From Siphonodentalium dalli (taxonomy: Eukaryota; Mollusca; Scaphopoda; Gadilida; Siphonodentaliidae): DNA of 64,000 nucleotides. Where the stretch lies: contig CP136066.1 of NCBI GenBank assembly GCA_032622095.1, positions 57,874,609-57,938,608 on the forward strand. Reading direction: 5' to 3'. Below are positions 523 to 64,000 of this stretch, piece by piece (position 1 is the stretch's first letter; the number at the start of each line of letters is the position of its first letter). A program made the position numbers and the translations under genes. The notes beneath the pieces are model-generated. The model made no database searches. It had not been told where the DNA came from and was given only the letters and a program-made list of their open reading frames with translations.

Positions 523-3500
523 GTAAATCTAGTAGTTTATTAAACCCCCCGATCCTTATAGGAGGTTTGGGACATACATACGAGGGCTCCGCTCTATCTG
601 TCCATCTGAGCAAACATATCACCTTGTAACTAGGGTGGTAATTAGCGGATTTTATTTTATTGGGCATGGCGATTTCACAGGTTGGGGGAAAGGATACTTA
701 CATACTACGGGTTTAGTCCATTAATTTTTACCAGAGGTTCGGCCCTTGCTTGACTTGCAAATTTGTGAATTTTGTTTCCGAAAGAACATTTCAGCTTGTG
801 ACACTGGCATATGTCACGCTGTAATTTTTTTTATATCACAATATTTTCCATAAGTTTGATTGGCAAAATTTCTCAGAAATTGTTTCGTCCAAAAATAATT
901 TGTATGGTATGACACATTTATGACCTTGACTTGAAATGAAGAAAGGTGTGCAAATCATGTGTTTGATTTGTAGAAAATTACTCTCTTCATTACAGGATTC
1001 ATAACTCATCCTGCGATCATTAAAGCTAGCCATGTCAAGGTCATACGAGGTTCTAAATCTGACGGCGAGTTGGGAGATGATGAGTCGTCATCAGTAGTGG
1101 ACATGGAAACTGCTGAGCGACAACTGGAGACAATTGAGAGCATTGATCCGTCAAGTGGTAGTTTATCAAGTTTGTCAGAATACCTCAGCCAATGGCATCC
1201 TTCCGATTTCCTTGAGCATGATGGTTATAAAGTTCAGAGTGAGTTTAACCCTTTACCCAACAAACCGGCCAAAACCGGCCAAATAAAGCTTCAACAGCCT
1301 AAAATATCTTCGGTCTGTCTCAATAGAACCATACAAATATGGATATCATTGGAACTGGCTCCTTGACCACATTGTGATAGTTACAGTTATGCCCTGTGCC
1401 AATGCATTCTCTTATATATGCGAGTCGACCATAGGTCGCCTCGCATATATAAGAGAATGCATTGGCCTAAAAAAAAATCTTTTTTTAACACTTTTTACCA
1501 TTTTTTCTTACATTCTTTAACAATTTTATAATTTTTAATGTGTTAAGCCAATGCATTCTCTTATATATGCGAGGCGACCTATGGTCGACTCGCATATATA
1601 AGAGAATGCATTGGCACAGGGCCGTTCTGTTGGGTAAAGGGTTAATTCAAAGATTACAAGCTAATTGGTCAATAATGCTCTTGGATATTACTGTATTTAT
1701 TCAGTGTTAAATTTTCTCTATTTCTGCGTTTGTGACTTCATAAAGGCTCATTATGCATGTTTGTAAGTTAAAGTTGATATTGTGAATAAATGTTCCCAAA
1801 TTACTATTTCTTTGGCTTCGGGGGTAAAAAACATTTGATTCGAGTCGTGGAACCCACCCATCAAAGCTCTGAGTGATCAGATATAAAAAATTTTAATCTG
1901 TTATTTGCTGAGATACATGTATGTAATTGTTGGTGGCCTAGCAAAAAATTCATCAAGCTGACGGTCCCGGACCAAATTGCAGATGAAGATTGATAACTCT
2001 AAAATAAAGTGGCTTTGGGTGTTTGGTATTTGACAATCAGGCCAAATTTTGTTGAACAAAATGTTGATAAATAACACTTTTATACTATAGTTGACTGTGG
2101 TTAGCATTATTTTTGGTCAATTAATCGATTCTGAAGCGGCATTTCAAAAACAAATTTGTTGTTGTTGAAATCTGATAATATGAGGACCATCGAATCGGAT
2201 TGAGTACCTTTAACCTTTGAAAAATAAAATTCAAATGCAAAGTTGTCCGTCCGCCCCAATTAAAACAAGCTGATTCCAGCATACCCCTCCCCATAACTTA
2301 AAATAATTATATGGTAGATTTGGATCATGGGGATTTATTGTCAATTCTGGAACTATTTTGTCTGACATTTGCAGAATGAGGTCCCCAGAGGGTGAATTTA
2401 GTGAAGCTACCCCATACAATGGGCTAGCATCACCAAATTCACCCTCTGGGGACCTCATTCTGCTTAGGCCTCATCCTCTGGGAAGTAGCTATAGTCTCAA
2501 ATTAACATTATTTTAGTTAGTTTTTCGCATCTGTTCATTTTCTATATCCTCTAATTTGCAGAAGATAAAATGCATAATCGAAGTGACTCATGGGCGAACA
2601 TCAACTTCAACTGAGAAACTTCAATCTGATCCTAGGTCTCCCATAGCATCCCCTGATAATAAATTATGCCGTTGCTATCAGCTGACGAAACCCTCCTATG
2701 CCCATGGTGCATGTAATGTATATATCAAATTTGAAGATCAATTGAACCATTGTTATTTTTTGCAGGATCAAATTTGTGGGTGTATAATCCTCGAAACGGT
2801 CAGTGGACAGGACAAAGTACCTTAACCCTGCTGGGGCCAGAAATTAATGTTAAAGTGAAGGGCAATTGTCGAGATGTTTACGAGGTTAACTTTCTGCATC
2901 AAGATGAACCAAATGCCAGGTCAGTATAAATATATATATCATACATGTGCCAAGACTCATAAGCAAAATGTCCGGTAGCGCAAATATCTCAGCCATCGTT
3001 TCAGGGTCCGCGCTGGCCCGAAATTAACTTTTGCCAAATGAAGATAATTTTTGCCAAATGCTGTGAGACGTTGCCAAATGCTATCAGTTTCTAATACATT
3101 GTGTTTTTTATTTTGATTATTTCAACAATCGCTGCTTGAGCGACCTTTGATATTGATAGGAAAGCAGTTCATTATTAATAATTCTTGCCTCTATACTTGG
3201 GTTTATCAGAGAGCAATAAACCAATGGCATAACAATGAAATTGCAATAGGGTTTCTTCATCAGAAAGGCACATAGAAACAAACAGGATTAGCTATGTAAA
3301 CACCTCCACCAGACATACTAGCAAACCCTCCACCCCTTACTAATGATATCAGGTTAACCCTTTACCCAACAAACCGGCCAAAAACGGCCAAATAAAGCTG
3401 CAACAGCCTAAATTATCTTGGGTCTGTCTCAATAAAACCATACAAATATGGATATCATTGGAACCGGCTCCTTGACCACATTGTGATAGTTACAGTTATG

Positions 3501-5836
3501 CCCTGTGCCAATGCATTCTCTTATATATGCGAGTCGACCATAGGTCGCCTCGCATATATAAGAGAATGCATTGGCCTAAAAAAATCTTTTTTTAACACTT
3601 TTTACCATTTTTTCTTACATTCTTTAACAATTTTATAATTTTTAATGTGTTAAGCCAATGCATTCTCTTATATATGCGAGGCGACCTATGGTCGACTCGC
3701 ATATATAAGAGAATGCATTGGCACAGGGCCCTTCTGTTGGGTAAAGGGTTAACTGAAGCTTGAGGAGTTAACTTTTCATAACCTTATAAATCACCACAAA
3801 TAATACCATTAATGAAAGTCTTTCCTGAAATGAGTCGTATTGGTTGACAAATATTATTAAACTTTCTTGAGGAATCAAAAGTGACTGCCACAAAATTTTT
3901 GCCAAATGAAAATATTTTTGACCAAATGTGAATTATTTTTGCCATTGGCAACTTTGGCAAGTGGCAGCGCGAACCCTGCATGGTTTATCATGTATGGATG
4001 AATATTCACTGAATTTCATAAGCGCGCCCAATTACATTCTAGCATTCTCGTGTTATCCTTCTTTGTCTGGATCAGCCATGTGTATTAAGACATCAATGAA
4101 ATTTGGTATTGGATGTTCACCACCACAAGGGTTTTCAATGTTATTTTTTTCAGATTTGTTCACATTTTAACTTTTATAGTTATGCTCCTTCATATATATT
4201 TCTAACTCGGGTTCCATCCTGTCGATGTTTCAATTTGGCACCGTGGGGTATGCCAGCACTCGAGGTGCAACCTCTTCTTTGTACCTGTTAACATAAACAT
4301 GTATCCTCTAGAGCAAGGCCGGCCCATGTACATTTTTTTTACATTTATTTGGATACAAACAAGCAGTCGCCAATGGTGGTATTGTCCCGCCTAGTTGGGC
4401 AAAGTTGGGGATGGGCATTTTCAAAATATGCTAAAAAATAACTGATATCAGTACATATTTCTTTGAGATTGGTTAATATTTGTTTTAGTTCAGGCTTAAA
4501 ATTTAATTTGCAATGCTAAAAATTACAAAGGGTCGTAACTCTGGTAAAAATATACAGCTGGGCCTAGTTTGCGAACTCGTTTCTGAAACTCCTATTGTGA
4601 ACGCACATACCAAAATCTCTGAAATCTTTTAATAACATTGTTCGAAATAACCCCCGGACAACTTTTCATGGGTGCAATAGCCAAAAAATGACAAAGGGCT
4701 GTAACTCTGGTGAAAATTCCTGGTCTGAACTATTTTCAGATACTCCTCTTGTTAACTGATATACCAAAAATATTTGAAATCTGTTGATAATTGTTCAAAA
4801 TAAACCCCGGACAACTTATCATGAGTGCTAAAAATGCCAAAAAATTACAATCAATGGGCTGTAACTCTGGTAAAAATGTATGGCCAGGCCTGAAGACATG
4901 GTGCTGGACGTTTTCAAAATGAGGTCTCCAGAGGGTGAATTTAGTGACATGGGGACCTCATTCTGCATGGCCTCATCTGCTATGGGAGACCTGGTCTCAG
5001 ATTTAAGTTCCGAGATGGTGATGTGCACCCATTGGGTGCCTTGATTATGCATTGTGTCGTCTGCCAATTTGGGGGATACAGAGAAACTAAACTGAAAAAA
5101 AAGAAACTTTCTAAAGACACTAAAAAACATGTTAATTTGATAATAAAGATACTTTCCAGAGAAGATGAGGCCAAAGCAGAATGAGGTCCCCAGAAGGTGA
5201 ATATAGTGATGCTAGCCCGCTGTCCGATAACATCTGTTCATTTCTTGTTCCAGGTACATTGGTAAAATATACAAAATAGAGAGGAGGCCAGAGCAGTATA
5301 TGCAGGACACCATTTGTCAGATGCTGGCGCGATATTACGTCATTATGTTTAACCAATCAGTACAGAGATGCACCGACCTTCACATTTCATTCCAAGTTCA
5401 CTATCTCCCAGTGTTTCATATCCAGCTTTTATCAAAGTCCGGCGTGCTTCTTCAGTGCATTAACGTTGAACCGTACCTCGAGGGAGACTTCGAAAAAATA
5501 ACCAACAACCTCGAACACTGCAACAATAACCTCGCTCAGCAAAAAAGCGACGAGCTTCGAGATATCGCGACAGCTCTGTCTCACTTCACGTATTGCAGTA
5601 CAAACGGACACCTGATGTTGGTCGATATTCAGGGGTTTATGCCGACTGAAGGGGAAGGAATTATCTACCTTACCGATCCACAGTTTCACACAAGGTCATC
5701 AGAGAATATGAAAATTGAGAAGTTTTGTACGGCAGATTATGGTGGAGATGGGATGAAGTTGTTCTGGCGGAGCGTCCATAGTGAATGCAACTCTATCTGT
5801 AAATCACTCGGACTGCAGCGTCCTATCATAGTTTGA
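235..5836 (+). CDS. Alpha-kinase domain protein, 3' part of gene (four exons)
   Basis: The four exons 235-522, 996-1238, 2766-2919 and 5254-5836 join in one frame with GT-AG introns and phases 1, 1 and 2, ending at TGA 5834-5836. The last two exons carry the alpha-kinase (atypical Ser/Thr kinase) fold: a lysine-containing strand (IGKIYK), INVEPYLEGDFEKITNN, LSHFTYCSTNGHLMLVDIQG, LTDPQFHT, a glycine-rich ADYGGDGMKLF and the Cys/His zinc-site helix HSECNSICKSLGL. These match the ATP-binding, metal-binding and zinc-scaffold regions of the family (eEF2 kinase, MHCK, vwkA). The N-terminal exons are Ser-rich and not conserved. The gene starts outside the window, so subfamily and substrate cannot be set. 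Introns 2 and 3 are filled with MITEs. No signal peptide or membrane segment is seen in this part, so it is probably cytosolic. Confidence 0.88.
523..995 (+). other. Alpha-kinase intron 1, no other feature
   Basis: AT-rich intron. The first 107 bases remain open in the exon frame but lead to a TAA after the strong GTAAAT donor, so they are read as intron. Confidence 0.6.
996..1238 (+). CDS. Alpha-kinase gene, acidic linker exon
   Basis: Acceptor CATTACAG ends at 995; donor GTGAGT starts at 1239. It enters in phase 1 and leaves in phase 1. The product is acidic and Ser-rich (GDDESSSVVDMETAERQLETI ... EYLSQWHPSDFLEHDGYKVQ). The last residues lead into the kinase domain. A piggyBac-like MITE starts immediately downstream of the donor, at TTAA 1245-1248. 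Confidence 0.8.
1245..1645. mobile_element. piggyBac-like MITE, family A, copy 1
   Basis: TTAA on both sides and inverted ends CCCTTTACCCAACA / TGTTGGGTAAAGGG. Two 67-nt hairpins (1399-1465 and 1548-1614) that are reverse complements of each other flank a T-rich spacer. CCC-starting ends with a TTAA target fit piggyBac. It sits a few bases after an alpha-kinase splice donor. Confidence 0.85.
1788..2215. mobile_element. Family D MITE (GGTACTCAACCCG type), copy 1
   Basis: Contains the family core TATTTCTTTGGCTTCGGGGG, TTGATTCGAGTC and GAACCCACC, and ends in TTGAGTACCTTTAA. The left end is lost. Contains the intact site AATTAATCGATTCTG that is occupied in the copy at 15600. Confidence 0.6.
2365..2650. 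mobile_element. Family F MITE (GAGGTCCCCAGAGGGTGAAT), partial
   Basis: A terminal hairpin of about 95 bp with arms GCAGAATGAGGTCCCCAGAG, followed by the family interior (CCTAGGTCTCCCATAGCA). The second hairpin is absent. Confidence 0.6.
2766..2919 (+). CDS. Alpha-kinase gene, N-lobe exon
   Basis: Acceptor TTTTTTGCAG ends at 2765; the donor GTCAGT starts at 2920. The product, SNLWVYNPRNGQWTGQ ... VYEVNFLHQDEPNA, is the start of the alpha-kinase N lobe. Phase 1 in, phase 2 out, matching its neighbours. Confidence 0.82.
3002..3978. mobile_element. hAT-like non-autonomous element
   Basis: Inverted ends CAGGGTCCGCGCTG and CAGCGCGAACCCTG with internal TTGCCAAATG iterations near both ends. Flanked by 8-bp duplications CATCGTTT (2994-3001) and CATGGTTT (3979-3986), 7 of 8 identical. 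An 8-bp target duplication with CAGGG ends fits hAT. Contains MITE 3354-3752. Confidence 0.7.
3354..3752. mobile_element. piggyBac-like MITE, family A, copy 2 (nested)
   Basis: Same ends and two hairpins; TTAA flanks. Inserted inside the hAT-like element 3002-3978. Confidence 0.85.
4910..5215. mobile_element. Family F MITE, shortened
   Basis: Left and right hairpin remnants around an interior with GGTGATGTGCACCCATTGGG. Ends about 40 bp before the acceptor of the terminal alpha-kinase exon. Confidence 0.55.
5254..5836 (+). CDS. Alpha-kinase gene, terminal catalytic exon
   Basis: Acceptor TTCTTGTTCCAG ends at 5253. One long terminal exon encodes the rest of the catalytic domain, from YIGKIYKIERRPEQYMQD through the zinc-site helix HSECNSICKSLGL, and closes with LQRPIIV and TGA. 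The base composition is visibly less AT-rich than the surrounding repeats. No polyadenylation signal is obvious; a MITE remnant follows from about 5862. Confidence 0.9.
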
Positions 5837-5861
5837 GTGTTCTGTCAATTTCAGTTAGCAC

Positions 5862-5950
5862 TTTCATGACGGGACCTGTGCTGGGACAGCATTAAATATC
5901 CTGCGCCAGTGCATTTTCTTATATAGCGAATCTCCCAGAGCGAGTGGCAT
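5862..5950. mobile_element. Family-B MITE remnant downstream of the alpha-kinase gene
   Basis: TTTCATGACGGGACCTGTGC followed by CCAGTGCATTTTCTTATAT and half a hairpin (tip CTCCCAGAG). No right end. Confidence 0.5.

Positions 5951-6209: not shown

Positions 6210-6240
<31 letters not shown>
6208..6240 (+). repeat. Poly-C tract
   Basis: About 32 C bases in a row. Other homopolymers: G15 near 48661-48675 and C19-20 near 60269-60287. Confidence 0.9.
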
Positions 6241-6921: not shown

Positions 6922-7321
6922 TTAACCCTTTACCCAACAAACCGGCCAAAACCGGCCAAATAAAGCTGCAACAGCCTAAATTATCTTGGGTCTGTCTCAA
7001 TAAAACCATACAAATATGGATATCATTGGAACCGGCTCATTGACCACATTGTGATGGTTACAGTTATGCCCTGTGCCAATGCATTCTCTTATATATGCGA
7101 GTCGACCATAGGTCGCCTCGCATATATAAGAGAATGCATTGGCCTAAAAAAAATCTTTTTTTACCATTTTTTCTTACATTCTTTAACAATTTTATAATTT
7201 TTAATGTGTTAAGCCAATGCATTCTCTTATATATGCGAGGCGACCTATGGTCGACTCGCATATATAAGAGAATGTATTGGCACAGGGTAAAAAAAATCCC
7301 TTCTGTTGGGTAAAGTGTTAA
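6922..7321. mobile_element. piggyBac-like MITE, family A, copy 3 (hybrid right end)
   Basis: TTAA flanks, two hairpins. Before the right end it carries CACAGGGTAAAAAAAATCCC, which otherwise belongs to the GTGACCCGCC family, suggesting recombination. Confidence 0.8.
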
Positions 7322-7652: not shown

Positions 7653-7720
7653 TTGTCACGATACACTTTTCGATTTAAATACATTTACAAAAGTGGCTTT
7701 TTCGCTAAATGTATATAAAT

Positions 7721-7881
7721 ATAAGGATTAACTGTCATGTGGACTATTTTTATGGAGATGTAACCGTGAGGTAAGTGGTCATAACTTGTATGTAAAACCC
7801 TTCGGGTTTTACACAAGTTATGTCCACTTACCTCACGGTTACATCTCCATAAAAACAGTCCACATGACAGTTAATCCTTAT
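7721..7881. repeat. Long palindrome (fold-back), unit 1
   Basis: ATAAGGATTAACTGTCATGT and its reverse complement end a near-perfect hairpin of about 161 bp, with GTAAAACCCTTCGGGTTTTAC at the tip. A second copy is at 11682-11842. Confidence 0.85.
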
Positions 7882-8038
7882 CTCCATGTTCTTCTTAGTG
7901 GTCATGGTTTTACAGACTTTTATATTTTTTAAACATTTACCCACCGCGAGTTTCCGTGGGTCCCTTTGGTGGTGATGTTTTTACAGACTTTTATATTTTT
8001 TAAACATTTACACACTGCGAGTGCCGTGGGTCCCTTTA

Positions 8039-8849
8039 GGGTGGATACACACATGCATGTAATCTCTGTAATTATCGTGTATTTGGCGTTTTTACATGGA
8101 TCATACAGACAATGTAATATGTGTCCACTGAAAACCCAATCATTGCCGACGTGTTGACCGCACTGAGTTAATAGTTCCAATTAAGTCGGAATGAAGAGAA
8201 ACCGCTATCTTGGACCGAGTCGCCAGGCCACTTAAAATAATTGCTCATGTGATAACCCATATGGTGGAATTTCTATATAAATAATAACCAGTCCTCTCTT
8301 GATATTTATAGTAGTGGTGGATCAGGATTTCCCCCAACGCAGGGGCTATATATGATCCCCGACGCAGGGGCTATCTATGATCCCGAAAGCTACCATGCAG
8401 GCAGGGTGGCTAACTCTGAGCTATTTAAGTAAAACATATTATATTGTACCTTCTTGCCCAGATTATTCCGACCGATACATTCAACTAAGTCCCTTAGCAA
8501 TTTGAAGCTTTTGACACCCCACGCCAAAACAATCACCATGGTCGAAAATGTTCTATATCAAGCCTGTATATGCCAGACGTGTCGCTTCTGGTGTTCGTAC
8601 ATTAATAAAATGCCAGATATCACACAAGACTTGACTAATTTCCGCATCCGTAAGAGATTACTTGTTTTGGACTGGCCTTAAATGTCCTGATAGCAGACAG
8701 TTTTGAGTTCGCTTATCACTACTCACTTGTCTGGCCTGTTAACAATGAACTGCTCGCGTGCAGGTGATTAATGTTGTCAATTATTGGTGTGGCCACGTAA
8801 AATACATGTATTTTACATACAGAAATTACATGCATGTGTGTATCCACCC
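8039..8849. mobile_element. Harbinger-like MITE, unit 1
   Basis: The ends are inverted repeats GGGTGGATACACACATGCAT and its complement, flanked by direct TTA (8036-8038 and 8850-8852). A TTA target duplication is typical of PIF/Harbinger. No transposase was recognised; a 75-codon frame inside (8454-8681) has no known similarity that I can see. Confidence 0.65.
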
Positions 8850-9608
8850 TTAGTGGTGATGTTTTTACAGACTTTTATATTTTTTTAAACATTTACCCAC
8901 TGAGTGCCTTGGAGTTCCTTTAATCAATGCTTGTTTGTATATAGGGCAGCTTTAGGTTTTTTTTTTTTTTTTCTCTTATAAATGTTTCTCTATTGAGCTT
9001 TTTATTTATTTTATACCTATTATTCAATACATATTTAATGCCTGTTAATTATATTGAGAAATAAAAATATATTTATTCAACAATAATACTTCCTGTTTCA
9101 GTTTGTACTTGTACGTAGTCTTAGAGATGCTTATCCGATTAAGCACTCCTAGATTACTATTTTTGTGGATAAACATATTTGATTCGAGTCAAGGAACCCA
9201 CTCATCAAAGCTCAGAGTGATCAGCAAATAATTTTTGAAATCTGTTATTTCTCGAGATATGCACTTCTTTCCTAGCAAATATTCATTCAAACCGACCAAA
9301 TTAAGATGGATAACTAAAATCAAGTGGTAATACAGCCAAATTTCGTGATAATCAAGTAATCAAGGCCATATTATTAAATGAAGTGTTTGAAAAGCTATGT
9401 CATTATATTTACACCATTAAATACGCCAAAGAGTCTTTATCTAGGACTATTTATTTATGCAGGCAAACCACATGGTTTTGTAAATTCCGCTATAAACTGG
9501 GGACTCGTTGTAGATCCTCTAAGTATTTTGCAACCTATTTTGATCCCTCGTACATGAAAATGATGGACACTTTATATTGAGTAGGGAGGTTTTTTGTGAG
9601 GGTTAACA

Positions 9609-10130
9609 GGTCAGGCACATCCTGAATTCCACTATTATAGCGATATTCCACTATTATAGCGATATTCCACTATTTTAGTGATATTTGACTATAACATATT
9701 CATGTTTCCTTTATTTGTGTCGGGAATAGAAGACGGTGCATACCAGTGCACAGCCAAATGTCACTCATAACAATATTGCAGCAAATGAACAGTCTTCCGA
9801 AAAAATTCGTTGTGCAATCTTTTGCGCCAGCTTTGATATTCAATAATATTATACTATTACTAATATATCCCGTTCTAAATGACAATAGCAGGATGACTCA
9901 ATCGCTCCTTCATAACAATATTTCAACTAATTACATGCTAATTGAGTTGCTTATCATGTGCCGTCATGATTAATAATTCTCCTGGTGCGATCTGATTTTG
10001 AATAATATTTGTGGGAAATATGATTTTGGATTATCCCTCTTTTATCAAATTAACAAAACGGTAATGGTCAAATACCACTATAATAGTGGAATATCGCTAT
10101 AATAGTGGAATTCAGGATGTGCCTGACCTG
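9609..10130. mobile_element. MITE with CAGGTCAGGCACATCC ends, unit 1
   Basis: Inverted ends CAGGTCAGGCACATCCTGAA and complement, flanked by GTTAA on both sides. Inside the left end, TTCCACTATTATAGCGATA is iterated two to three times; the right end has the complement. No ORF is recognised. Confidence 0.65.
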
Positions 10131-11681
10131 GTTAATGGGCAGGCTACTGGACATTCTGAAACTAGATGGTTGAAGCCAATTAGTTTTTGAGTGTCCAATC
10201 AGGAGTCCATTAACCTACTTAAAACACAGTTTTATAATGTACAAGGAGAAATTGCTTTTATGCAGATGAAAAATTCTGATGAATCTCGATAAATGAGACA
10301 TATTAAAACGTTTTTCTGTATAAAAATAGTCCTTGGCCGACAACAAAACCACGCCCCTTCACACAGTTCGTGTTAATGGGGGTTTCATGTGGACTTTGCC
10401 ATGAACACAATTGTATGCATATATACAGGTACAACTATTTTTCCGAACAAAACGTCCATATATGCCAACATATAATAAACTATTTGTTTTTGCAGTGTGC
10501 ATATAGCGAAGTATATATACATAATATATACTCTAATCACAATTATCTGTATTTTAGGCATGTATGCATTTTAACAAAGTTTTGACTCACTATCATTGTT
10601 GTTTCCTGAAGAACAGTAACTCTATTACCGTACTGGAGTCCGGCATGCTTCAATGTGATAGAGACCCCATGGTAATGCAAATGAGCAGTTCTAAGGGTAG
10701 GCATGGTCTGGGAAACAAAATATATTGTTATTATGTCTGAGAATTGGAGATTATAAGAATGAACAGAACAAATAATAGACTTTTCCTTTATTTATTTGTG
10801 AAATTCACACAGCCTGGATGAGGCAGTCCCGAACGAGAGGTATTGCGTTCCGCCAACAAATCGAGTGCGATAATACGTCAAAATCCAGACACCCATGAGG
10901 TTCTATTTTTATTACATATCTCAGTATCATAGTAAGTTGACTCACAATCGTACATCTCCGGTACAGAAAATGTGAATTTAATTGAGTTTTAACGGCATTT
11001 TAGGGTTAACGCCACACTCAGACAGGGAGCCCGTCTATCCGCGAGTGACCCATCTTGACCCGCGCATAGGTGTTAATTGGGTTTTCCCCAGATTTTCCAA
11101 AAAATATAACCCAATCAGCGCATTGCGATTTCGACAAGAGGGTTGTCGCCCTTGCGTTGAAAAGTTGAAAAAGTTAAAATAGTAACGGCGAGAGTCAGTC
11201 TAACAACACTGAATGAAATAGTTCCGTCAACAGATTGCACTAGTGCGATTCTGAGAATTATCTCACGCCTGGAACGTCGTGCGATCATGCCAATTACGTT
11301 GATAGATATGTAATAAATATCCTATCTGTCTGGAATATAGTGTCTGACATTTGCAGAATGATCTCCAGTAGGAAGTAGTAGCATGTCTTGAAAACTGGTG
11401 ACACAAAGGACTGTATGGATAAATGATATGGAATGCTTCATTCAGTCTGGGATCCACCATTCAGACTCACACATACTGAAATTCACTTCAATCATTCTAT
11501 TAGAACTGAAGCGAAAAGGGAAGGATTACATTCATTATTTTGAGCTGAAATTGGTAAATTATCCGGGTCAGCAAAGAATGGAATCATTTTTTCCAGACTG
11601 GAGTAATTTAGAATTGTCACGATACACTTTTCGATTTAAATACATTTACAAAAGTGGCTTTTTCGCTAAATGTATATAAAT

Positions 11682-11842
11682 ATAAGGATTAACTGTCATG
11701 TGGACTATTTTTATGGAGATGTAACCGTGAGGTAAGTGGTCATAACTTGTATGTAAAACCCTTCGGGTTTTACACAAGTTATGTCCACTTACCTCACGGT
11801 TACATCTCCATAAAAACAGTCCACATGACAGTTAATCCTTAT
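11682..11842. repeat. Long palindrome (fold-back), unit 2
   Basis: Identical to 7721-7881, displaced by 3,961 bp. Confidence 0.85.
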
Positions 11843-11999
11843 CTCCATGTTCTTCTTAGTGGTCATGGTTTTACAGACTTTTATATTTTTTAAACATTTA
11901 CCCACCGCGAGTTTCCGTGGGTCCCTTTGGTGGTGATGTTTTTACAGACTTTTATATTTTTTAAACATTTACACACTGCGAGTGCCGTGGGTCCCTTTA

Positions 12000-12810
12000 G
12001 GGTGGATACACACATGCATGTAATCTCTGTAATTATCGTGTATTTGGCGTTTTTACATGGATCATACAGACAATGTAATATGTGTCCACTGAAAACCCAA
12101 TCATTGCCGACGTGTTGACCGCACTGAGTTAATAGTTCCAATTAAGTCGGAATGAAGAGAAACCGCTATCTTGGACCGAGTCGCCAGGCCACTTAAAATA
12201 ATTGCTCATGTGATAACCCATATGGTGGAATTTCTATATAAATAATAACCAGTCCTCTCTTGATATTTATAGTAGTGGTGGATCAGGATTTCCCCCAACG
12301 CAGGGGCTATATATGATCCCCGACGCAGGGGCTATCTATGATCCCGAAAGCTACCATGCAGGCAGGGTGGCTAACTCTGAGCTATTTAAGTAAAACATAT
12401 TATATTGTACCTTCTTGCCCAGATTATTCCGACCGATACATTCAACTAAGTCCCTTAGCAATTTGAAGCTTTTGACACCCCACGCCAAAACAATCACCAT
12501 GGTCGAAAATGTTCTATATCAAGCCTGTATATGCCAGACGTGTCGCTTCTGGTGTTCGTACATTAATAAAATGCCAGATATCACACAAGACTTGACTAAT
12601 TTCCGCATCCGTAAGAGATTACTTGTTTTGGACTGGCCTTAAATGTCCTGATAGCAGACAGTTTTGAGTTCGCTTATCACTACTCACTTGTCTGGCCTGT
12701 TAACAATGAACTGCTCGCGTGCAGGTGATTAATGTTGTCAATTATTGGTGTGGCCACGTAAAATACATGTATTTTACATACAGAAATTACATGCATGTGT
12801 GTATCCACCC
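12000..12810. mobile_element. Harbinger-like MITE, unit 2
   Basis: Same element in the second tandem unit, with the same TTA flanks. Confidence 0.65.
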
Positions 12811-13569
12811 TTAGTGGTGATGTTTTTACAGACTTTTATATTTTTTTAAACATTTACCCACTGAGTGCCTTGGAGTTCCTTTAATCAATGCTTGTTTGTA
12901 TATAGGGCAGCTTTAGGTTTTTTTTTTTTTTTTCTCTTATAAATGTTTCTCTATTGAGCTTTTTATTTATTTTATACCTATTATTCAATACATATTTAAT
13001 GCCTGTTAATTATATTGAGAAATAAAAATATATTTATTCAACAATAATACTTCCTGTTTCAGTTTGTACTTGTACGTAGTCTTAGAGATGCTTATCCGAT
13101 TAAGCACTCCTAGATTACTATTTTTGTGGATAAACATATTTGATTCGAGTCAAGGAACCCACTCATCAAAGCTCAGAGTGATCAGCAAATAATTTTTGAA
13201 ATCTGTTATTTCTCGAGATATGCACTTCTTTCCTAGCAAATATTCATTCAAACCGACCAAATTAAGATGGATAACTAAAATCAAGTGGTAATACAGCCAA
13301 ATTTCGTGATAATCAAGTAATCAAGGCCATATTATTAAATGAAGTGTTTGAAAAGCTATGTCATTATATTTACACCATTAAATACGCCAAAGAGTCTTTA
13401 TCTAGGACTATTTATTTATGCAGGCAAACCACATGGTTTTGTAAATTCCGCTATAAACTGGGGACTCGTTGTAGATCCTCTAAGTATTTTGCAACCTATT
13501 TTGATCCCTCGTACATGAAAATGATGGACACTTTATATTGAGTAGGGAGGTTTTTTGTGAGGGTTAACA

Positions 13570-14091
13570 GGTCAGGCACATCCTGAATTCCACTATTATA
13601 GCGATATTCCACTATTATAGCGATATTCCACTATTTTAGTGATATTTGACTATAACATATTCATGTTTCCTTTATTTGTGTCGGGAATAGAAGACGGTGC
13701 ATACCAGTGCACAGCCAAATGTCACTCATAACAATATTGCAGCAAATGAACAGTCTTCCGAAAAAATTCGTTGTGCAATCTTTTGCGCCAGCTTTGATAT
13801 TCAATAATATTATACTATTACTAATATATCCCGTTCTAAATGACAATAGCAGGATGACTCAATCGCTCCTTCATAACAATATTTCAACTAATTACATGCT
13901 AATTGAGTTGCTTATCATGTGCCGTCATGATTAATAATTCTCCTGGTGCGATCTGATTTTGAATAATATTTGTGGGAAATATGATTTTGGATTATCCCTC
14001 TTTTATCAAATTAACAAAACGGTAATGGTCAAATACCACTATAATAGTGGAATATCGCTATAATAGTGGAATTCAGGATGTGCCTGACCTG
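13570..14091. mobile_element. MITE with CAGGTCAGGCACATCC ends, unit 2
   Basis: Copy of 9609-10130 in the second tandem unit. Confidence 0.65.
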
Positions 14092-15619: not shown

Positions 15620-16285
15620 AACACTCCTAAATTACTATTTCTTTGTCTTTGGGGGTAAAAATTTGATTCGAGTTGAGTAACCCACCACCCATCAAAGCTC
15701 AAGAGTTATCAGATATCGATTTTTGAAATCTGTTATTTTTTACCACCTGGAATATTTGGCAGCCAAGCAAATAATCAACGAGCTGACCGTTGTACAAAAT
15801 TTTGATACATAACACGTTTTTGGAAAATTTTATACAAGAGGTGACAGTTGTTATTCGTTTTTGCTAATTAACCCTTTACCCAACAAACCGGCCAAATAAA
15901 GCTTCAACAGCCTAAAATATCTTCGGTCTGTCTCAATAGAACCATACAATTGGAACCGGCTCATTGACCACATTGTGATAGTTACAGTTATGCCCTGTGC
16001 CAATGCATTCTCTTATGCATTGGCCTAAAAAAAAATCTTTTTTTAACACTTTTTACCATTTTTTCTTACATTCTTTAACAATTTTATAATTTTTAATGTG
16101 TTAAGCCAATGCATTCTCTTATATATGTGAGGCGACCTATGGTTGACTCGCATATATAAGAGAATGTATTGGCACAGGGCCCTTCTGTTGGGTAAAGGGT
16201 TAATCGATTCTGATAACTAAAGTGTCATTTGAATAAATGTTGTTGTTGGAATCTGATGATACAGGGACCATCGAATTGGATTGTG
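15620..16285. mobile_element. Family D MITE, copy with nested family-A MITE
   Basis: Same core (TTTGGGGGTAAAAATTTGAT) interrupted at TTAA by 15868-16203, then ATCGATTCTGATAACTAAAG. A third, fainter copy is at 9137-9365 with its duplicate at 13098-13326. Confidence 0.65.
15868..16203. mobile_element. piggyBac-like MITE, family A, copy 4 (nested, hairpin deleted)
   Basis: TTAA flanks. The first hairpin has collapsed to a short CATTCTCTTATGCATTGG. Inserted into a family-D element; the empty site is seen at 2119-2135. Confidence 0.85.
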
Positions 16286-16832: not shown

Positions 16833-17048
16833 CACAGTAATGCCCAAAATAATCGACTCCTTAACCACAGCAGAATTATGGGTAATTTTTCAGGATTTAG
16901 TCAGAAATATGGCTTGTTGCCATTCATCGAAAAGCTCTCAGTGAGCGCTTTCCGATGAATGGCAACAAGCCATATTTCCGACTAAATTATGAAAAATTAC
17001 ACATAATTCTGCTGTGGTTAAGGGGTCGATTATTTAGGCCTTACTGTA
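16833..17048. mobile_element. Fold-back MITE family E
   Basis: Two arms of about 105 bp from CAGTAATGCCC to its complement at 17048, loop near GAGCG. TA-flanked, Tc1/mariner-like by target only. Confidence 0.75.
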
Positions 17049-17291
17049 CTCTTAAGATCCATATAAGGCAGATAGGGTCAGGTTACTTTGGATAGGGTCA
17101 GGTTACTATGAATCAGGCATCTGATTCGATTGGAAGAAGGAACAGTATAATGCGCGAAATTCGGCAACAACTGTCTATGTTTCTACTTCATGGAAATAAA
17201 AGCACATTTTTAGAAACAGTAATTTTGCCTCAAAGTTGATACAATTGCTCAATAGTGAATGAAAATTTCTATCCAGCTGTCATCTGTCATT

Positions 17292-17771: not shown

Positions 17772-18066
17772 TTAACCCTTTCATGACGGGAGCTGCACTG
17801 GTGAAAAATTTAAGATCCTGTGCCAGCGCATCTCGTATAAATGTGAGATCATGTGCTAGTGTATTCTCTTATATATGCGAGTCTCCCATAGGAAGCCTCG
17901 CATATATAAGAGAATGCACTGGCTTACAAGGTCAAGGTAAATAATGTTAGGCCAATGTATTCTCTTATATATGCGAGGCTCCATATGGGAGACTCACATA
18001 TATAAGCGAATGCACTGGCACAGGTTTTCGCAACATTTCAAGAATCTCCAGTCATGGAAGGGTTAA
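17772..18066. mobile_element. piggyBac-like MITE, family B
   Basis: TTAA flanks, ends CCCTTTCATGAC / GTCATGGAAGGG. It contains two hairpins of a related sequence (CAGTGCATTCTCTTATATAT with a CTCCCATAGG tip). Confidence 0.78.
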
Positions 18067-19767: not shown

Positions 19768-20243
19768 TTAACCCTTTCAGCGCCAGGGGCCGATCTCATC
19801 AGCCCTAATTTACAGTCTGTAAAATCTGCCCTAAAAAAAAAAATTTTGGGTTGAATTTTTTTTGGGTATGCTTAAGCATGCTATAGCGAATTTTTTTTGG
19901 GTATGCTTAAGCATGCTATAGCGAATTTAAAAACAAACTGGTTAAAACCTTAGGGGCATATTATAACTCAAAACTATCACCAAGTATTCATAGTAATAAT
20001 TTTGATGCCCATGAAAAATGTAAGATTCCCTGGCACTAAACCTACAAAATAAGTCTGTTAAAGAATATAAGAAAAAATTATTAAAATTGTAAAAAATAAT
20101 AACAAATGATGAAAAATTGTTAGGCCAATGCATTCTCTTATATATGCGAGGCGACCTATGGTCGACTCGCATATATAAGAGAATGCATTGGCACAGGGTA
20201 TATTGGTTGATACAAAAATCGGACCTGGCACTCAAAAGCTTAA
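19768..20243. mobile_element. piggyBac-like MITE, family C, copy 1
   Basis: TTAA left; CCCTTTCAGCGCCAGG and the decayed right end GGCACTCAAAAGC-TTAA. One shared 67-nt hairpin in the right half and a 44-bp direct duplication (GGGTATGCTTAAGCATGCTA) near the left. Confidence 0.7.
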
Positions 20244-21833: not shown

Positions 21834-24800
21834 CTGGAAAAAATATATATAATTTATGCCCAATCCTGAGTTTAGTGTGCCTGTCATTTGCAGAATGAGG
21901 TCCCCAGAGGGTGAATTTAGAGATGCTATCCTGCATAGTGGGCTAGCATCACTAAATTCACCCTCTGGGGACCTCATTCTGTTTAACCCTTTACCCAACA
22001 AACCGGCCAAAACCGGCCAAATAAAGCTTCAACAGCCTAAAATATCTTCGGTCTGTCTCAATAGAACCATACAAATATGGATATCATTGGAACCGGCTCC
22101 TTGACCACATTGTGATAGTTACAGTTATGCCCTGTGCCAATGCATTCTCTTATATATGCGAGTCGACCATAGGTCGCCTCGCATATATAAGAGAATGCAT
22201 TGGCCTAAACAAAATCTTTTTTTAACACTTTTTACCATTTTTTCTTACATTCTTTAACAATTTTATAATTTTTAATGTGTTAAGCCAATGCATTCTCTTA
22301 TATATGCGAGGCGACCTATGGTCGACTCGCATATATAAGAGAATGCATTGGCACAGGGCCCTTCTGTTGGGTAAAGGGTTAAGCCTCATCTTCTCTGGAA
22401 AATTTCTTTATTATCAAATTTCTATAGAAACTTCTTCACATAGATTCTATTTCTTTTTAAGTTTAGTTTCTCTATATCCCCAAAATGGCAGACGCACATT
22501 GCATATCGAGGTACCCAATTCACCAATTCATATTCACAATTTGGGAACCTCAATCTGAGTCTATGTCTCACATAGCAGATGAGGCCATGCAGAATGAGGT
22601 CCCCCAGAGGGTGAATTTGGTGATGCTAGCCCACTATGCGGGATAGCATCACTAAATTCACCCTCTGGGGACCTCATTCTGCAAATGACAGGCACACTAC
22701 ACTCAGACTTGTTTATACCATTGCTCTTGAAGACATGAGCATCAAGTTATTCTGGCTTGTGTTATTCATCGACTGAGATTCCCAGGCTGGTAAATATGGT
22801 GCTGGACATTTGCAGAATAAGGTCCCCAAAGGGTGAAGCTACCCCACACAGTGGGATATCATCCCCAAATTCATCATCTGGGGACCTCATTGTACACGAC
22901 CTCATCTGCTATGGGAGACCTAGACTCATAATTAAGTTCCCAGATGGTGAAGATAGTTATGTGCACCCATTGGGCACCTCGATTATGCAGTGTGTCATCT
23001 GCCAATTTGGGGATATAGAGAAACTAAACTGAAAAAGAAACTTTCAAAGGAAGTTTTTAATTTGTTAATTTCACAATAAAGATACTTTCCAGAGAAGATG
23101 ATGCCTAAGCAGAATGAGGTCCCCAGAGGGTGAAATTAGTGATGATAGCGCACTGTGCGGGATAGCATCACTATATTCACCCTCTGGAGACCTCATTCTG
23201 AAATGTCCAGCACCATATTTTCAGGCCTGTAGAGTTCATTGATTAAATATAGAATATACGCATAGTGTTTCTGAATAACAAATTTAATCCACAAGTGGGA
23301 TTGGCGATTTACACCATGAGCTTCAGCGAGTGGTGTAAATCGCCAATCCCACTCGTGGATTAGATTTGTTATTCAGAACCACTATGCGTATATTTTGTTT
23401 ATGTCACGATCTTTACTATGCGATGGATAAACACTTGTCCGTTCAAATTGTATGGAGAAAGTTTAATCCACTCTGCGAAGTTTATGCCACGATCATTACA
23501 ATGCGATGGATAAACACTTTTGCCGCTCAAATTGTATGGAGAAAGTTTAATCCACTCTGCGAAGTTTAATATCAACAGTAGGCACGTTTAATCAACAGGT
23601 GTTGATTAAATGTAAAATTTAAACAGATGGCTTTATTTATATAGTAAGATAGGCGATCGTGGTGTAAATTTACTTCACACTAGAGCATGGGTATTGAATA
23701 AATATATAGAATGACACAAGTGTGTGAACTGGTTTAGCGGTATTGCATGAGGTTGTAGTGGCATAGCAAAAACCATAGCTTCAAGTTGTACCTTGTGGCA
23801 GGACTAGCGAGTGTAATAACGTCAACATGTTCAACCAATGTGTCATTCTATTTATTGCACACCAAAACATCTGTAGCTTGTGGTATGCAAAAAGTCAAGT
23901 TTCATTTATTGCTTTTTTTTTATTGAACATTGATTTAGGTAGAACATACCAGTTTACTAAATATATATTAAATAATGAAAAGACTATTTCCGTTACTGTT
24001 GATGCCATCATAAAATAAATATTGTCAATGTAATTTTCTTTTTTGCCCAAAGACAAGCCAAATTTTTATATTGAACATTTTGGTGTATTTTGTGAAAATA
24101 AACCAATGGATGTAGAATAAAACTGAAATCAAAATTAAATTGATGGAAGATATTCTGATACAATTTGGATCTACCTGATTGCAGAATTCCTTCATTGTTC
24201 TGTTCCCTTCTATAAAATTTGAATAGAAATCTGACTCTTTTTGTAAATATCCAGAAACAAGCAACCTGAAATTGCAAAGAAATTATTTTTTTTAAATTAT
24301 TTTACAAAAAAATACTAGAAATTTATGGATACTGGATACATAGAGCATTTTATGGAACTTCTAGAGACATAAATCTGAAAGAGGTTGCCAAAGTATTTAA
24401 ACACAGTATCAGGATTAACTGTAGAACAAATAATTTGTACAGTAATGCTCTATGTAATCGGGGAGAGCTTTCCGATGAATGGCAACAAGCCATATTTCCA
24501 ACTAAATCCTGAAAAGTTACCCATAATTCTGCTGTGGTTAAGAAGTCGATTACTTAGAGCATAACTTGTACACCGCTTGCTGCAGGCTTGGTCATTTCTT
24601 GATGCATGCATCTGAAATTTCAATAGTTTGATGGCTTTGACCATCAGTAAACAATACGAACATATGTTGTCTCAAATAAATGCAGGTTATTTAAATTATA
24701 ATCAATAGCTAAGGGTTAGATTTGGATAATGTAGAACAGTCAACAATTGTAAACGAGAGGCCGATCACGATCGGCAGATGTTTAACCCATACCTTGGCGA

Positions 24801-27800: not shown

Positions 27801-30800
27801 TACAGGTCCATTGCGAACACTGTCTAATACAGACCTTAGATAGACGACGAGGTAATCCGATAGCCCCTGGTTATTGAATGTCTCCAGTAACTCATCTTCT
27901 GAGCATTTGTTTTCTACTTTGTTCAACACATCCAAGAACTGAAACATAATAGTATCATTTTACATCAAAGCATTATTAACCCTTTACCCAACAGAAGGGC
28001 CCTGTGCCAATGCATTCTCTTATATATGCGAGTCGACCTATGGTCGACTCGCATATATAAGAGAATGCATTGGCACGGGGCATAACTGTAACTATCACAA
28101 TGTGGTCAAGGAGCCGGTTCCAATGATATCCATATTTGTATGGTTCTATTGAGACAGACCGAAGATATTTTAGGCGGTTGAAGCTTTATTTGGCCGGTTT
28201 TGGCCGGTTTGTTGGGTAAAGGGTTAACCCTTTACTGATGGGAGCTGTGTTGGTGCAGCATTAAAGTTAGCTTTACAGCTGCAAATTATACATGACCTCC
28301 GATTCAAAAAAATTAACTGGTACAATGAACTGATCTCAAATATACTGAAATATATAAGAAATAAAACACATATTTTCAGTGCTATATTGACATGGGTGTT
28401 GTTCTTATGGCTCTCCTTGTGTTGACTATCTCTACACCAAATTTCATTGATATTCAATAAGTTAACCTATCTCTGAGACATCAGTTTAGTACAGATGAAA
28501 AATCAACATTTCCAGATGAACAAAGAGAAATAACTCTAGAAGGGAAAATGAGAGAAACATTGTTGGATACTGCTCTGATGGCCAACATCCTTAGCATTTT
28601 TTTTAGATCCGATAACTTATGGTTGAGTTATAAGCTTCAATGAGAGATGGATAGACGGAGGACTGGATGCATGTAATCCAGGACACCCACTTTTCATTTT
28701 GTTCATTGGAGTATGGTCAGTGTAGTTTGATACTTACTGTGTCATGAAAATCTTCTATTGTAAACTGTGGATAGCCCAGAGAAACTAAGTCATCTTTGCT
28801 TTTCTGTACAACATTTTTAAATCTGAAAATGATACATAATGAACAAGGTTTGTGCCACATTCTCATTTGGAAATATAATATATCTGCTTGGAAAATGTTT
28901 TGGAAAGCAAGATATTATGTCAATTAGTAATGATCTGTTTTAAAATTAAAGACATATTAGGTACTTCTTCGGGTGCTAAGAAACTAATAAGTACGTATTC
29001 AGGTGCTATGCCAACTGGAGGAATGTATCATTCTAGTAAATTCGCCAAAAATTTCAAACAAATCGACCTTACCACTTCATAGAAAACATCGTCTGAACTA
29101 CGCACAATTGTAAATATTTACTTCTCGATTCGGGACGCAACTATCTGCGATAAACTAACAAAAATGATTTTGCCATGGAGAGTCACTGTTTTTAATTAAT
29201 ATATATGAATGACGGTGCTTGTTGTCAATTTGGATATAATATTTATAAAATTTACTACTTTGAGGAAGATTATTCTCCATTTCTATTTGATCATCCTACC
29301 GGAGTGTTTCACATCACTTTAAGGTTCATTACAAAAGTTAAGAAATCATTAACAACTCTATGAACCTATTGTTAAATTGAAGTGAAACACTCTGCTGGGG
29401 TGTTATAATGCACATAACATGTTCTAAAACAGTCCCTTTTACTGTCCAACATTTATATGTGACCCGCCATATCAAATCCAGCCGTAAGTCGGGATTTTTT
29501 TACCCTGTGCCAATACAATCTCTTATATATGCGAGTCGACCATAGGTCGCATCGCATATATAAGAGAATGCATTGGCCTAACAATTTTTTATAATTTTTT
29601 TTAAATAAATGTTTCTTACAGTTTTTAGGACATAAAATAAAAAACATCCATTACCCTGCAGGGAGCCCCACACATATATAAAAGCATATAGAAGAGTGTC
29701 GTCTGCTCATGTTTGTCTGGGGCTCTGTATGGGTGAAATTATAAAATTGTTAAAGAATACAAAAAAAATTATTAAAATTGTAAAAAATTGTTAGGCCAAT
29801 GCATTCTCTTATATATGCGAGGCGACCTATGGTCAACTCGCATATATAAGAGAATGCATTGGCACAGGGTAAAAAAATCCCGACTTACGACTGGATTTGA
29901 TATGGCGGGGTCACATATATGAGAAAAAATATAACTAAAATTTATATTAATTGATAGAAATTTTTTGCCGGACAGGTGTCCTGGATTCATATATATTATT
30001 TTATACTCCGGAATCTATATAAAACATTCTAGGAAGAATTACAATATCTTTGAAACTTCGCTGTGATTTCACTTAAAGTGGGACTGTACCCTAAATCCGG
30101 CCATTTATGGGACCATCTTCTTTAATACTCAACAGAATATATGCAACAAATGAATGAGTTTGAGCCATGGATGAGTTCAAAATACATTCATGTGCTCTAT
30201 GAATGACGCAAACAACATGGTAATTATAATGAAAATGAATTTATGACTGGATTTAGTGTGCAGTACCCCTTCAAGAAGAGACAAAAGAATTATTGTTGAA
30301 AGCTTGTGTCTATTAACCCTTTACCCAACAAACCGGCCAAAACCGGCCAAGTAAAGCTTCAACAGCCTAAAATATCTTCGGTCTGTCTCAATAGAACCAT
30401 ACAAATATGGATATCATTGGAACCGGCTCCTTGACCACATTGTGATAGTTACAGTTATGCCCTGTGCCAATGCATTCTCTTATATATGCGAGTCGACCAT
30501 AGGTCGTCTCGCATATATAAGAGAATGCATTGGCCTAAAAAAAATCTTTTTTTACCATTTTTTCTTACATTCTTTAACAATTTTATAATTTTTAATGTGT
30601 TAAGCCAATGCATTCTCTTATATATGCGAGGCGACCTATGGTCGACTCGCATATATAAGAGAATGCATTGGCACAGGGCCGTTCTGTTGGGTAAAGGGTT
30701 AAAGTATAGAATGTCTCAAGGTGAATCTCTCATATAACTCTTCATAAATTAGCCATGGAACTGTGTTAGACTGATAACATAAAGAGATAACAAAACAAGA

Positions 30801-49079: not shown

Positions 49080-49288
49080 TACAGTAATGCCCTAAATAAT
49101 ATCGACTCCTTAACCACAGAATAATTATGGTTAACTTTTCAGGATTTAGTCGGAAATATGGCTTGTTGCCATTCATTGGAAAGCTCTCAGTGAGAGCTTT
49201 CCGATGAATGGCAACAAGCCATATTTCCTGAAAAGTTACCCATAATTCTGCTGTGGTTAAGGAGTCGATTATTTAGGGCATTACTGTA
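49080..49288. mobile_element. Fold-back MITE family E, near full
   Basis: TACAGTAATGCCCTAAATAA to the complementary GGGCATTACTGTA, arms about 100 bp. Confidence 0.78.
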
Positions 49289-49799: not shown

Positions 49800-50062
49800 T
49801 TAACCCTTTCGTGACTGGAGCTTCTTGAAATTTTGCGAAAACCCTGTACCAATGCATTTTATTACTGGTATATATGTGAATCTCCCATAGGGAGCCTCAT
49901 ATATATAAGAGAATACATTGGCCTAACAATATTTACCTTGATCTTGTAAGCCAGTGCTTTCTCTTATATATGTGAGGCTCCTTATGGGAGACTTGCATAT
50001 ATAAGAGCATGCACTGGCACATGATCTTTAATTCTACACCAGTGCAGCTCCTGAAAGGTTTA
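49800..50062. mobile_element. piggyBac-like MITE, family B, decayed
   Basis: Left TTAA and CCCTTTCGTGACTGGAGC; the right end is mutated (CTGAAAGGTTTA). Two imperfect hairpins of the same module. Confidence 0.65.
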
Positions 50063-50310
50063 GCCCAGTAACCAGTCTATTCCATAGGTGATATAAACAA
50101 AATTCTGAAAGCTACTTTAATTGACATTTAAACAATTTGCAGGAGTTTTAAGTAATATACCAATAATATGATTTTGTCGGGTGTATGGTTTATTTAATAA
50201 ATGTAGATTACAGTATTGTCAGTGTGACCATAAGATCACTCTTTCCGATAAATATAGCATTCTTTGATAATATGTACATCACTGTGATGATACATTTAGG
50301 GTATTAAAGG

Positions 50311-50527
50311 TACAGTAATGCCCTAAATAATTGACTCCTTAACCTCAGCAGAATTATGGGTAATTTTTCAAGATATAGTCGGAAATATGGCTTGTTGCCA
50401 TTCATCGGAAAGCGCTCAGTGAGAGCTTTCCGATGAATGGCAACAAGCCATATTTCCGACTAAATCCTGAAAAATTACCCATAATTCTGCTGTGGTTAAG
50501 GAGTCGATAATTTAGGGCACTACTGTA
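50311..50527. mobile_element. Fold-back MITE family E, full
   Basis: TACAGTAATGCCCTAAATAA to GGGCACTACTGTA; arms almost perfect complements. Lies just upstream of the first coding exon of the EF-hand/WD40 gene. Confidence 0.8.
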
Positions 50528-50657
50528 ACTTAGACCACAAGATGCCATGTATAAATCAATATTTTTATTTCCTCCAGGTTGTAGATGTTATTACAAATGG
50601 ATGAATTTCATATTCCCAATCTCTTGGTTAACTAGAGTCCACAAATCGTGAACAGTT

Positions 50658-61493
<10,836 letters not shown>

Positions 61494-61735: not shown

Positions 61736-62135
61736 TTAACCCTTTACCCAACAAACCGGCCAAAACCGGCCAAATAAAGCTTCAACAGCCTAAAATATCT
61801 TCGGTCTGTCTCAATAGAACCATACAAATATGGATATCATTGGAACCGGCTCCTTGGCCACATTGTGATAGTTACAGCTATGCCCTGTGCCAATGCATTC
61901 TCTTATATATGCGAGTCGACCATAGGTCGCCTCGCATATATAAGAGAATGCATTGGCCTAAAAAAAATCTTTTTTTAACACTTTTTACCATTTTTTCTTA
62001 CATTCTTTAACAATTTTATAATTTTTAATGTGTTAAGCCAATGCATTCTCTTATATATGCGAGGCGACCTATGGTCGACTCGCATATATAAGAGAATGCA
62101 TTGGCACAGGGCCCTTCTGTTGGGTAAAGGGTTAA
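61736..62135. mobile_element. piggyBac-like MITE, family A, copy 8
   Basis: TTAA flanks, two hairpins. Its right TTAA is the left TTAA of the family-B element that follows. Confidence 0.85.
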
Positions 62136-62372
62136 CCTTTCCATGACTGTAGCTTCCTGAAATTTTTGCAAAAATGAATTCTCTTATATTTATCCTCCCA
62201 TAGGGAGCGTCATATATATAAGAGAATACTTTGGCCTAACAATATTTACCTTGACCTTGTAAACCAGTGCACATTCTTTTATATATTTTGGGAGACTCAC
62301 ATATATATGAGAATGCACTGGCACAGCATCTTTAATGCTGCGCCAGCTCTGCTCCCATCATGAAAGGGTTAA
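62132..62372. mobile_element. piggyBac-like MITE, family B, abutting copy 8 of family A
   Basis: TTAACCTTTCCATGAC to CATGAAAGGGTTAA with degenerate hairpins. Shares TTAA 62132-62135 with the previous element. Confidence 0.7.
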
Positions 62373-62880: not shown

Positions 62881-64000
62881 TGCTATGGGACTTCATGGAT
62901 TATTGGAGGTCGGTGTATAAATTTGCTCACAACTTGCTTCATTGCGGGGCATCGTCACTTCCGAGTTATATTTCTTGTCTATTTTCGGTCTAATAGGTCC
63001 AATTCTAAGTTCTAATGATGCCGTACTTGTGTGTGCAGATATTGGCAGAAATGTCATCATTTTAACTGGGATAATATGTGACCCGCCATATCAAATCCAG
63101 TCGTAAGTCGGGATTTTTTTACCCTGTGCCAATGCATTCTCTTATATATGCGAGTCGACCATAGGTCGCCTCACATATATAAGAGAATGCATTGGCCTAA
63201 CAATTTTTTACAATTTTAATAATTTTTTCTTGTATTCTTTAACAATTTTATAATTTCACCCATACAGAGCCCAAGACAAACATGAGCAGACGACACTCTT
63301 CTATATGCTTCTATATATGCTTCTATAATTATTGTCACGGTGCCTGTCAAAATGACAGACACCAAATGGATGGTGGCTGTCATTTTCTGGGCGGTGTCTG
63401 TCAAAATTATGTGCTGTCAATTGTTCTCTTATCTTATTTTTATGTGATAAACAATGCTTCAATACCATGTAAATCCAATTTGTGAACTGTGGTTACTTTT
63501 ACTGTTCGACCAGTGATCCCCCATTTCATTATTCATTTCATTAAATACTGCTTTAAACTGCCGTACATCTATCCTACTGCTAGACAAGGAGTACAGGCAT
63601 TTTTTGTTTCTTAATTTTTATATTAAAAATCGTATAATTGACCTTGAAATAGAAATGTTAAATGGTGAACGGTAAGCCAATAATTACGAACCGCACTTTA
63701 AACGAAACGAGTTGCTGATACGATTAAAGAACAACACGATATCTGATATAGTCATAAGAAACTACACGATACAATCACGTATATAATGGTTTTGTTCGAT
63801 CCAGATTTGCAAAGAAGCAAAAATAACTTGACAGAAATGTCTTATCCAGTTATATTTTATCTGATGGGAGTAGAAAAATGCTGTCGGACAAAATGTCCGA
63901 CCAGACGCAAATTGTGTCGGTCAAAGCTGTTTTGGTGACTGTCATTGACCGTGACCGACCACTTATTTCAAGCCTTATTAATTTTCGAACGCCCAGATCA
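62881..64000. other. Right edge, no exon supported
   Basis: Contains the truncated MITE 63073-63330, then a short cluster of GTGTCTGTCAAAAT text (63330-63415). The next WD40 exon is presumably beyond the window. Confidence 0.4.
63073..63330. mobile_element. MITE with GTGACCCGCCATATC end, truncated copy
   Basis: Left half of the 29455 element with one hairpin; its interior (CATGAGCAGACGACACTC) matches 29690-29720 in reverse. The right end is missing. Confidence 0.65.

Follow-up and report, generated by a model that had tools for sequence, protein, structure and literature searches.

How can one hairpin come to lie inside small transposons whose ends differ? The question arises from a 64,000-nt stretch of the genome of the scaphopod Siphonodentalium dalli (assembly GCA_032622095.1, contig CP136066.1, forward-strand positions 57,874,609 to 57,938,608; hereafter the window), for which an initial annotation described about twenty copies of a 67-nt hairpin module under different element ends. 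The arm CCAATGCATTCTCTTATATA has 49 matches in the window at ≤3 mismatches, compared with a mean of 0.00 in 100 shuffles. From these matches, hairpin modules were delimited by hand, in outward orientation, and grouped, again by hand, into larger elements, which gave 26 modules across 15 elements of four families (Table 1): 15 modules in eight A elements, six in three B elements, two in two C elements and three in two D elements. Nineteen of them are intact and of the A/C/D type, in agreement with the number first reported. The palindrome is exactly 69 nt long in 21 of the 26 modules, so that the length of 67 nt has to be corrected, and the shared unit is larger still. The right module of C1 (C1R) has 70 nt, the left module of A4 (A4L) has collapsed to 26 nt, and B2L, B3L and B3R are altered in length. 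Two modules face each other as inverted copies in 11 of the 15 elements, with one of these 22 modules collapsed (A4L); C1, C2, A6 and the half element D2 contain a single hairpin. The observation of small non-coding mobile elements that have unlike ends and a common hairpin core is thus confirmed; the layout of two facing hairpins, as well as two further parts of the shared unit described below, was missing from the first inventory.

Table 1. Elements containing the hairpin core, with positions in the window
Element	Family	Positions	Strand	Hairpins	Remarks
A1	A	1245..1645	+	1398-1466, 1547-1615	TTAA-flanked
A2	A	3354..3752	+	3507-3575, 3654-3722	
A3	A	6922..7321	+	7075-7143, 7213-7281	D-like right junction GGGATTTTTTTTACCCTGT
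A4	A	15868..16203	+	15999-16024, 16105-16173	left hairpin collapsed, 26 nt
A5	A	21983..22382	+	22136-22204, 22284-22352	
A6	A	27976..28227	-	28006-28074	single fully paired hairpin, the outer halves of two combined
A7	A	30313..30702	+	30466-30534, 30604-30672	
A8	A	61736..62135	+	61889-61957, 62037-62105	
B1	B	17772..18066	+	17855-17923, 17951-18019	TTAA on both sides; hairpins with CTCCC tip
B2	B	49800..50063	-	49849-49922 (altered), 49950-50018	TTAA on left only; right end decayed, limit approximate
B3	B	62132..62372	-	62165-62235, 62262-62322 (both altered)	decayed; TTAA common with A8
B fragment	B	5855..5940	+		half hairpin; outside the 15 elements
C1	C	52935..53222	+	53102-53171 (70 nt)	one hairpin
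C2	C	19768..20243	+	20124-20192	one hairpin
D1	D	29458..29915	+	29509-29577, 29795-29863	TATA-flanked
D2	D	63077..63327	+	63128-63196	half element; other half missing, right limit approximate

The shared unit comprises three parts: the motif CCCTGT on the outside, the 69-nt palindrome, and an A/T-rich tail on the inside. CCCTGT lies outside most modules and is altered in several B modules. The predicted fold of the palindrome consists of 27 bp, a single T-C mismatch (1x1), 5 bp and a 3-nt loop, with 32 of 33 pairs formed, which bears out the initial reading of an arm, one mismatch, an inner stem and a short loop. The predicted energy is -54.3 kcal/mol as RNA (z -14.3) and -35.4 as DNA. The T-C mismatch is retained in 19 of the 21 modules of exact length, the exceptions being the fused hairpin of A6 and A7L. 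When a whole element is transcribed, its two hairpins are predicted to base-pair together. D1 has inverted symmetry throughout, matching its reverse complement at 79% along the whole element.

The outer ends of the elements fall into four types. TTAA flanks both sides of all eight A elements and also of B1, B3, C1 and C2 (12 of the 13 A/B/C elements); B2, with its decayed right end, shows TTAA on one side only. Most A/B/C ends read CCCTT, which conforms to the CC[C/T]T terminal motif given for piggyBac-type MITEs (PMC2872659). The right tips of A3 (CACTTT) and C2 (GCTTTT) and the decayed right end of B2 are exceptions, and the left tip of B3 (CCTTTCC) departs from CCCTT but still lies within CC[C/T]T. 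Judged by this terminal signature of TTAA flanks and mostly CCCTT tips, families A, B and C are piggyBac-type MITEs. Kolobok elements, which combine TTAA with 5´-RR and YY-3´ termini (PMC9587614), were ruled out, as the A tips begin with CCC after TTAA. In family D, the tips of D1, the one complete copy, are TGTGACCCGCC (TGTGACC/GGTCACA) and are flanked by TATA or TA; the single end of D2 reads ATA followed by TGTGACC. Neither D1 nor D2 ends at a TTAA duplication, and a piggyBac site alone therefore does not explain family D. Ginger, a superfamily with TG tips and a 4-bp duplication, may be a candidate for it. On the nearer side, the hairpin lies 26–51 nt from the tip (8 ends measured, all four families; 26–47 nt in A/B/C). 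On the farther side, the distance is 149 nt in A5, 79 nt in B1 and 52 nt in D1. No DNA transposase was found among 10 proteins scanned with Pfam, drawn from 70 window ORFs of at least 85 aa.

Several observations were made at the element borders. A6 (28224-28227; by eye) and A8 (62132-62135) each adjoin a B-like tip with the TTAA in common, which concerns two of the eight A elements; a binomial estimate made post hoc, with 7 of 508 sites assumed, gives p ~0.005. A1 starts directly after GTGAGT, which resembles a putative 5´ splice site behind an open frame (1239-1248).

Of six pairs of ends compared over their outer 30 nt, five give alignments no better than those of shuffled sequence; in the sixth, A3R-D2L, the alignment beats all 2000 shuffles. 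One hairpin sequence recurs under unlike ends: the hairpins of A5L and C2R are identical over 75 nt, and the majority sequence of D is the same as well, which supports the view of one hairpin under different ends. Within family A, the hairpin has no significant advantage over the remaining sequence (4/138 variable columns versus 18/273; Fisher p=0.16). Between families, the hairpin with CCCTGT was compared with the first 60 nt of the tail. Mean mismatch is 0.9% in the hairpin versus 16.5% in the tail for A-C, 2.4% versus 13.3% for A-D, and 2.4% versus 13.7% for C-D; for B versus each other family, it is 15–17% versus 23–24%. Single pairs give 0/75 versus 9/55 for A5L-C2R (p=0.0003), 1/75 versus 6/58 for A5L-D2L (p=0.04) and 1/75 versus 7/58 for A8L-D2L (p=0.02). 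The C2R-D2L pair gives 1/75 versus 1/45 (p=1) with a 65-nt tail, in which case the tail count depends on the alignment, being 7/53 at 60 nt. The sole A-B pair tested, A5L-B1R, gives 10/75 versus 9/48 (p=0.45). These comparisons suggest, but do not prove, that the hairpin is better conserved than the tail among A, C and D, because the tails are of low complexity and the outcome depends on the alignment. Arms better conserved than flanks are consequently suggested, with this caution, for the comparison of A, C and D between families; no significant difference is seen within A or for A5L-B1R. Equal divergence of hairpin and ends, which the initial annotation had set against its own reading, gives a mixed picture: within A, the hairpin has no significant advantage; between families, it may be better kept.

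Changes within the palindrome point in two directions. Seventeen exact-length A/C/D modules, A6 being left out, contain 10 changes from the A5L sequence; none of these copy-specific changes is compensated on the opposite arm, four are of CpG type and one falls at the mismatch itself. Compared with the rest, however, B has both sides changed at three pairs (5/65, 30/40 and 31/39) in three modules from two elements, in addition to many one-sided, uncompensated changes. The absence of compensation in single copies, together with the two-sided changes in B, suggests that single copies decay freely and that the palindrome was kept in the progenitor lineage. This pattern fits an effect on transposition, or the renewal of palindromes through strand switching, better than it fits a role of the inserted copies in the host.

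We propose that the elements are non-autonomous DNA transposons (MITEs) built on one core, in which the palindrome is kept as a transposition aid and new ends are acquired by exchange, an account to which we give about an even chance of being right. A palindrome near the ends would aid transposition, so that the core is retained. The core would most likely be bound at the palindrome by a piggyBac-like transposase through its C-terminal domains, a kind of domain known to bind subterminal palindromes, and a palindrome located 26–47 nt inside the A/B/C tips could serve this binding. New ends would be gained through recombination or template switching near the base of the hairpin, favoured by palindromes, and the inserted copies would then decay neutrally. 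The ends of piggyBac itself contain 19-bp palindromes just inside the tips, which are bound by two (paired) cysteine-rich domains (PMC11707139). Rearrangements at hairpin sites are observed in three of the eight A elements, namely the collapse of A4L, the fusion in A6 and the D-like junction of A3R. This suggests that palindromes promote recombination, a likely route to new ends. The D-like junction of A3 is either a retained ancestral state or was gained by conversion; the variants of A3 conflict, some being held in common with A2 and others with A7 and A4. The variant G7A, at a position that is not CpG, occurs in A3R, A4R and D1L and, by eye, in C1R, which reflects either exchange or recurrence.

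Several points stand against the proposal. The ten proteins scanned include no DNA transposase, and D is not a TTAA element. Far-side hairpins are distant from the tip, by 79 nt in B1 and by 149 nt in A5, and in C there is only one hairpin. At 69 nt, the palindrome greatly exceeds 19 bp, and by analogy with piggyBat, in which some subterminal sites inhibit activity (PMC11707139), such a palindrome need not be an aid. The absence of a significant hairpin advantage within A and in A5L-B1R, and the uncompensated changes in B, also count against it. Finally, unrelated hairpins are abundant in the window, and a high frequency of palindromes may just be a general property of this genome. A scan for non-overlapping hairpins gave 33 or 34 in the window (two versions of one scan) and none in each of ten shuffles, and that palindromic elements are so common tempers the claim that this core is special.

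These other hairpins form two groups. Module E (93 nt, GCAGAATGAGGTCCCC) is found in 17 places, some of them partial, with varying flanks (34387-34644; 2371, 21890, 22589, 23109, 27599 and others); only at 34387-34644 are two copies paired in inverted orientation, enclosed by outer repeats. The second group, F, is a family of long palindromes at 16834-17049, 49079-49288 and 50307-50531, with further partial copies; the arms measure 94 nt in the first and 112 nt in the last, with a loop of 1 in both. At 5231-5833, the window has an alpha-kinase exon, for which human-type ALPK1 is the best PDB match. Pfam identified a LINE on the minus strand (36618-40319), encoding reverse transcriptase and endonuclease, and an otubain-like fragment (31701-32015). 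No tRNA genes were found in the window. A 3961-bp tandem duplication (7653-11613 and 11614-15574) is gapless and 100% identical, and is either very recent or an assembly artefact. A run of 30 C occupies 6211-6240.

Common descent is the alternative that survives best, and we regard it as possible though somewhat unlikely. According to this explanation, all families go back to one core-bearing ancestor and differ through divergence or replacement of its ends; no constraint acts on the core, and the A/T-rich tail merely changes or misaligns more. The non-significant contrasts within A and in A5L-B1R are consistent with it, as are the alignment dependence of the C-D tail result and the lack of compensation for copy-specific changes. 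The lower mismatch of the hairpin than of the tail in A-C, A-D, C-D and B versus the others, the three individually significant pairs and the three two-sided changes in B argue against it. A broader version of our proposal, which we consider rather doubtful, is that the hairpin cassette passes between DNA transposons of different superfamilies, A/B/C of piggyBac type and the non-TTAA family D; a subterminal palindrome would then be useful to more than one transposase, and the hairpin would provoke the exchange of ends.

That the core is a mobile unit itself, inserted into several unrelated MITEs, is quite improbable. Points in its favour are a clear-cut outer edge at CCCTGT in several contexts and the occurrence of the core in both TTAA and non-TTAA families; in addition, CCTGGCACT flanks the C2 core on both sides (by eye), and TA is present at both outer core borders in D. 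However, no duplication flanks the core in A, where the left border reads TTATG and the right border CCCTTC or CCGTTC, and independent insertion of the core was rejected for this reason. Moreover, the TA in D follows from the inverted symmetry of D, the inner boundaries are unlike between families, and all 26 modules lie, by hand assignment, within larger elements, none being free-standing.

MicroRNA precursors have an open terminal loop and an imperfect stem. The initial annotation likened the module to such a precursor, a reading that finds little support: the loop has 3 nt, the stem is near perfect (32/33 pairs), the hairpin matched no Rfam family at the gathering score, and none of the 10 changes is compensated. 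A source of microRNA- or siRNA-like small RNA, kept by selection on the RNA, is therefore highly improbable, despite the very stable predicted fold; the two hairpins are, in addition, predicted to pair together in a whole-element transcript. The precedent for this reading is Made1, an 80-bp palindromic MITE that yields hsa-mir-548 (PMC1784062). Like the present elements, Made1 is a MITE that is short and palindromic and would give a hairpin-forming transcript; it differs in consisting of one Hsmar-related palindrome with two 37-bp TIRs and a 6-bp centre (PMC1784062), whereas the hairpin of the present elements lies internally, is usually one of a pair and is closed by a 3-nt loop. With regard to the two options that had been offered, repeated capture or selection on a small RNA or transposition signal, one module under different ends is supported, the pre-miRNA is not, and a transposition signal fits better.

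The closest parallel is provided by the CMITEs of the coral Acropora, six families in which differing TTAA ends lie over a conserved core whose origin is unexplained (PMC2872659). Both groups have TTAA flanks and tips that vary by family (mostly CCCTTT in CMITEs), and in both the internal region is more conserved than the ends; here, hairpin mismatch across families is 0.9–2.4% among A, C and D and 15–17% to B. The tandem arrays, the composite family and the family related to a piggyBac-like transposon described for CMITEs also match features seen here (PMC2872659). Conversely, CMITEs measure ~100 bp with a 75-nt core, and the word 'hairpin' is absent from that paper (PMC2872659). The two cores are unrelated, as the best local matches of the 60-nt CMITE core consensus to the present core span 7 and 11 columns, both strands considered. 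Compared with CMITEs, the present core is a palindrome, is usually found as two inverted copies, and also occurs in a non-TTAA family. The likeness to piggyBac and piggyBat comprises the TTAA target and the palindromes just inside the tips, bound by transposase in piggyBac; theirs are 19-bp or imperfect palindromes, whereas a 69-nt hairpin is found here (PMC11707139). Galileo of Drosophila, a foldback-like element, likewise has long, internally repetitive inverted repeats and chimeric copies formed by ectopic recombination, and differs in belonging to the P superfamily, in its much greater length and in its 7-bp target duplication (PMC2775673).

In literature titles and abstracts, no report of this element was recognised, and strings of the element sequence had no match in the searched literature; an entry may exist in a repeat library, most subscription papers and the repeat databases lying outside this scope. 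A degenerate 26-mer had 0 matches in viral and prokaryotic contig collections, a 21-mer of the D end had 0 in viral contigs, and the 400-nt element A5 had none among plasmids or phages. The 19-mer CCTGTGCCARTGCATTCTC had 0 matches in viral contigs and 11 in prokaryotic contigs; the latter are attributed to chance, as the 15-mer ATTCTCTTATATATG is missing from all 11 loci and the sequence does not go on as the hairpin at any of them. Few matches were to be expected, since these collections are viral and prokaryotic.

Relative to the CMITE precedent, the novelty lies in the pairing of hairpins and in the occurrence of this core outside TTAA elements. The coral study left open how MITEs gain new ends and why their cores stay constant (PMC2872659). 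A core made of paired palindromes, present also in a non-TTAA family, makes both the exchange of ends and the constancy of the core testable, and the main interest of these elements lies in the presence of the core in a non-TTAA family as well.
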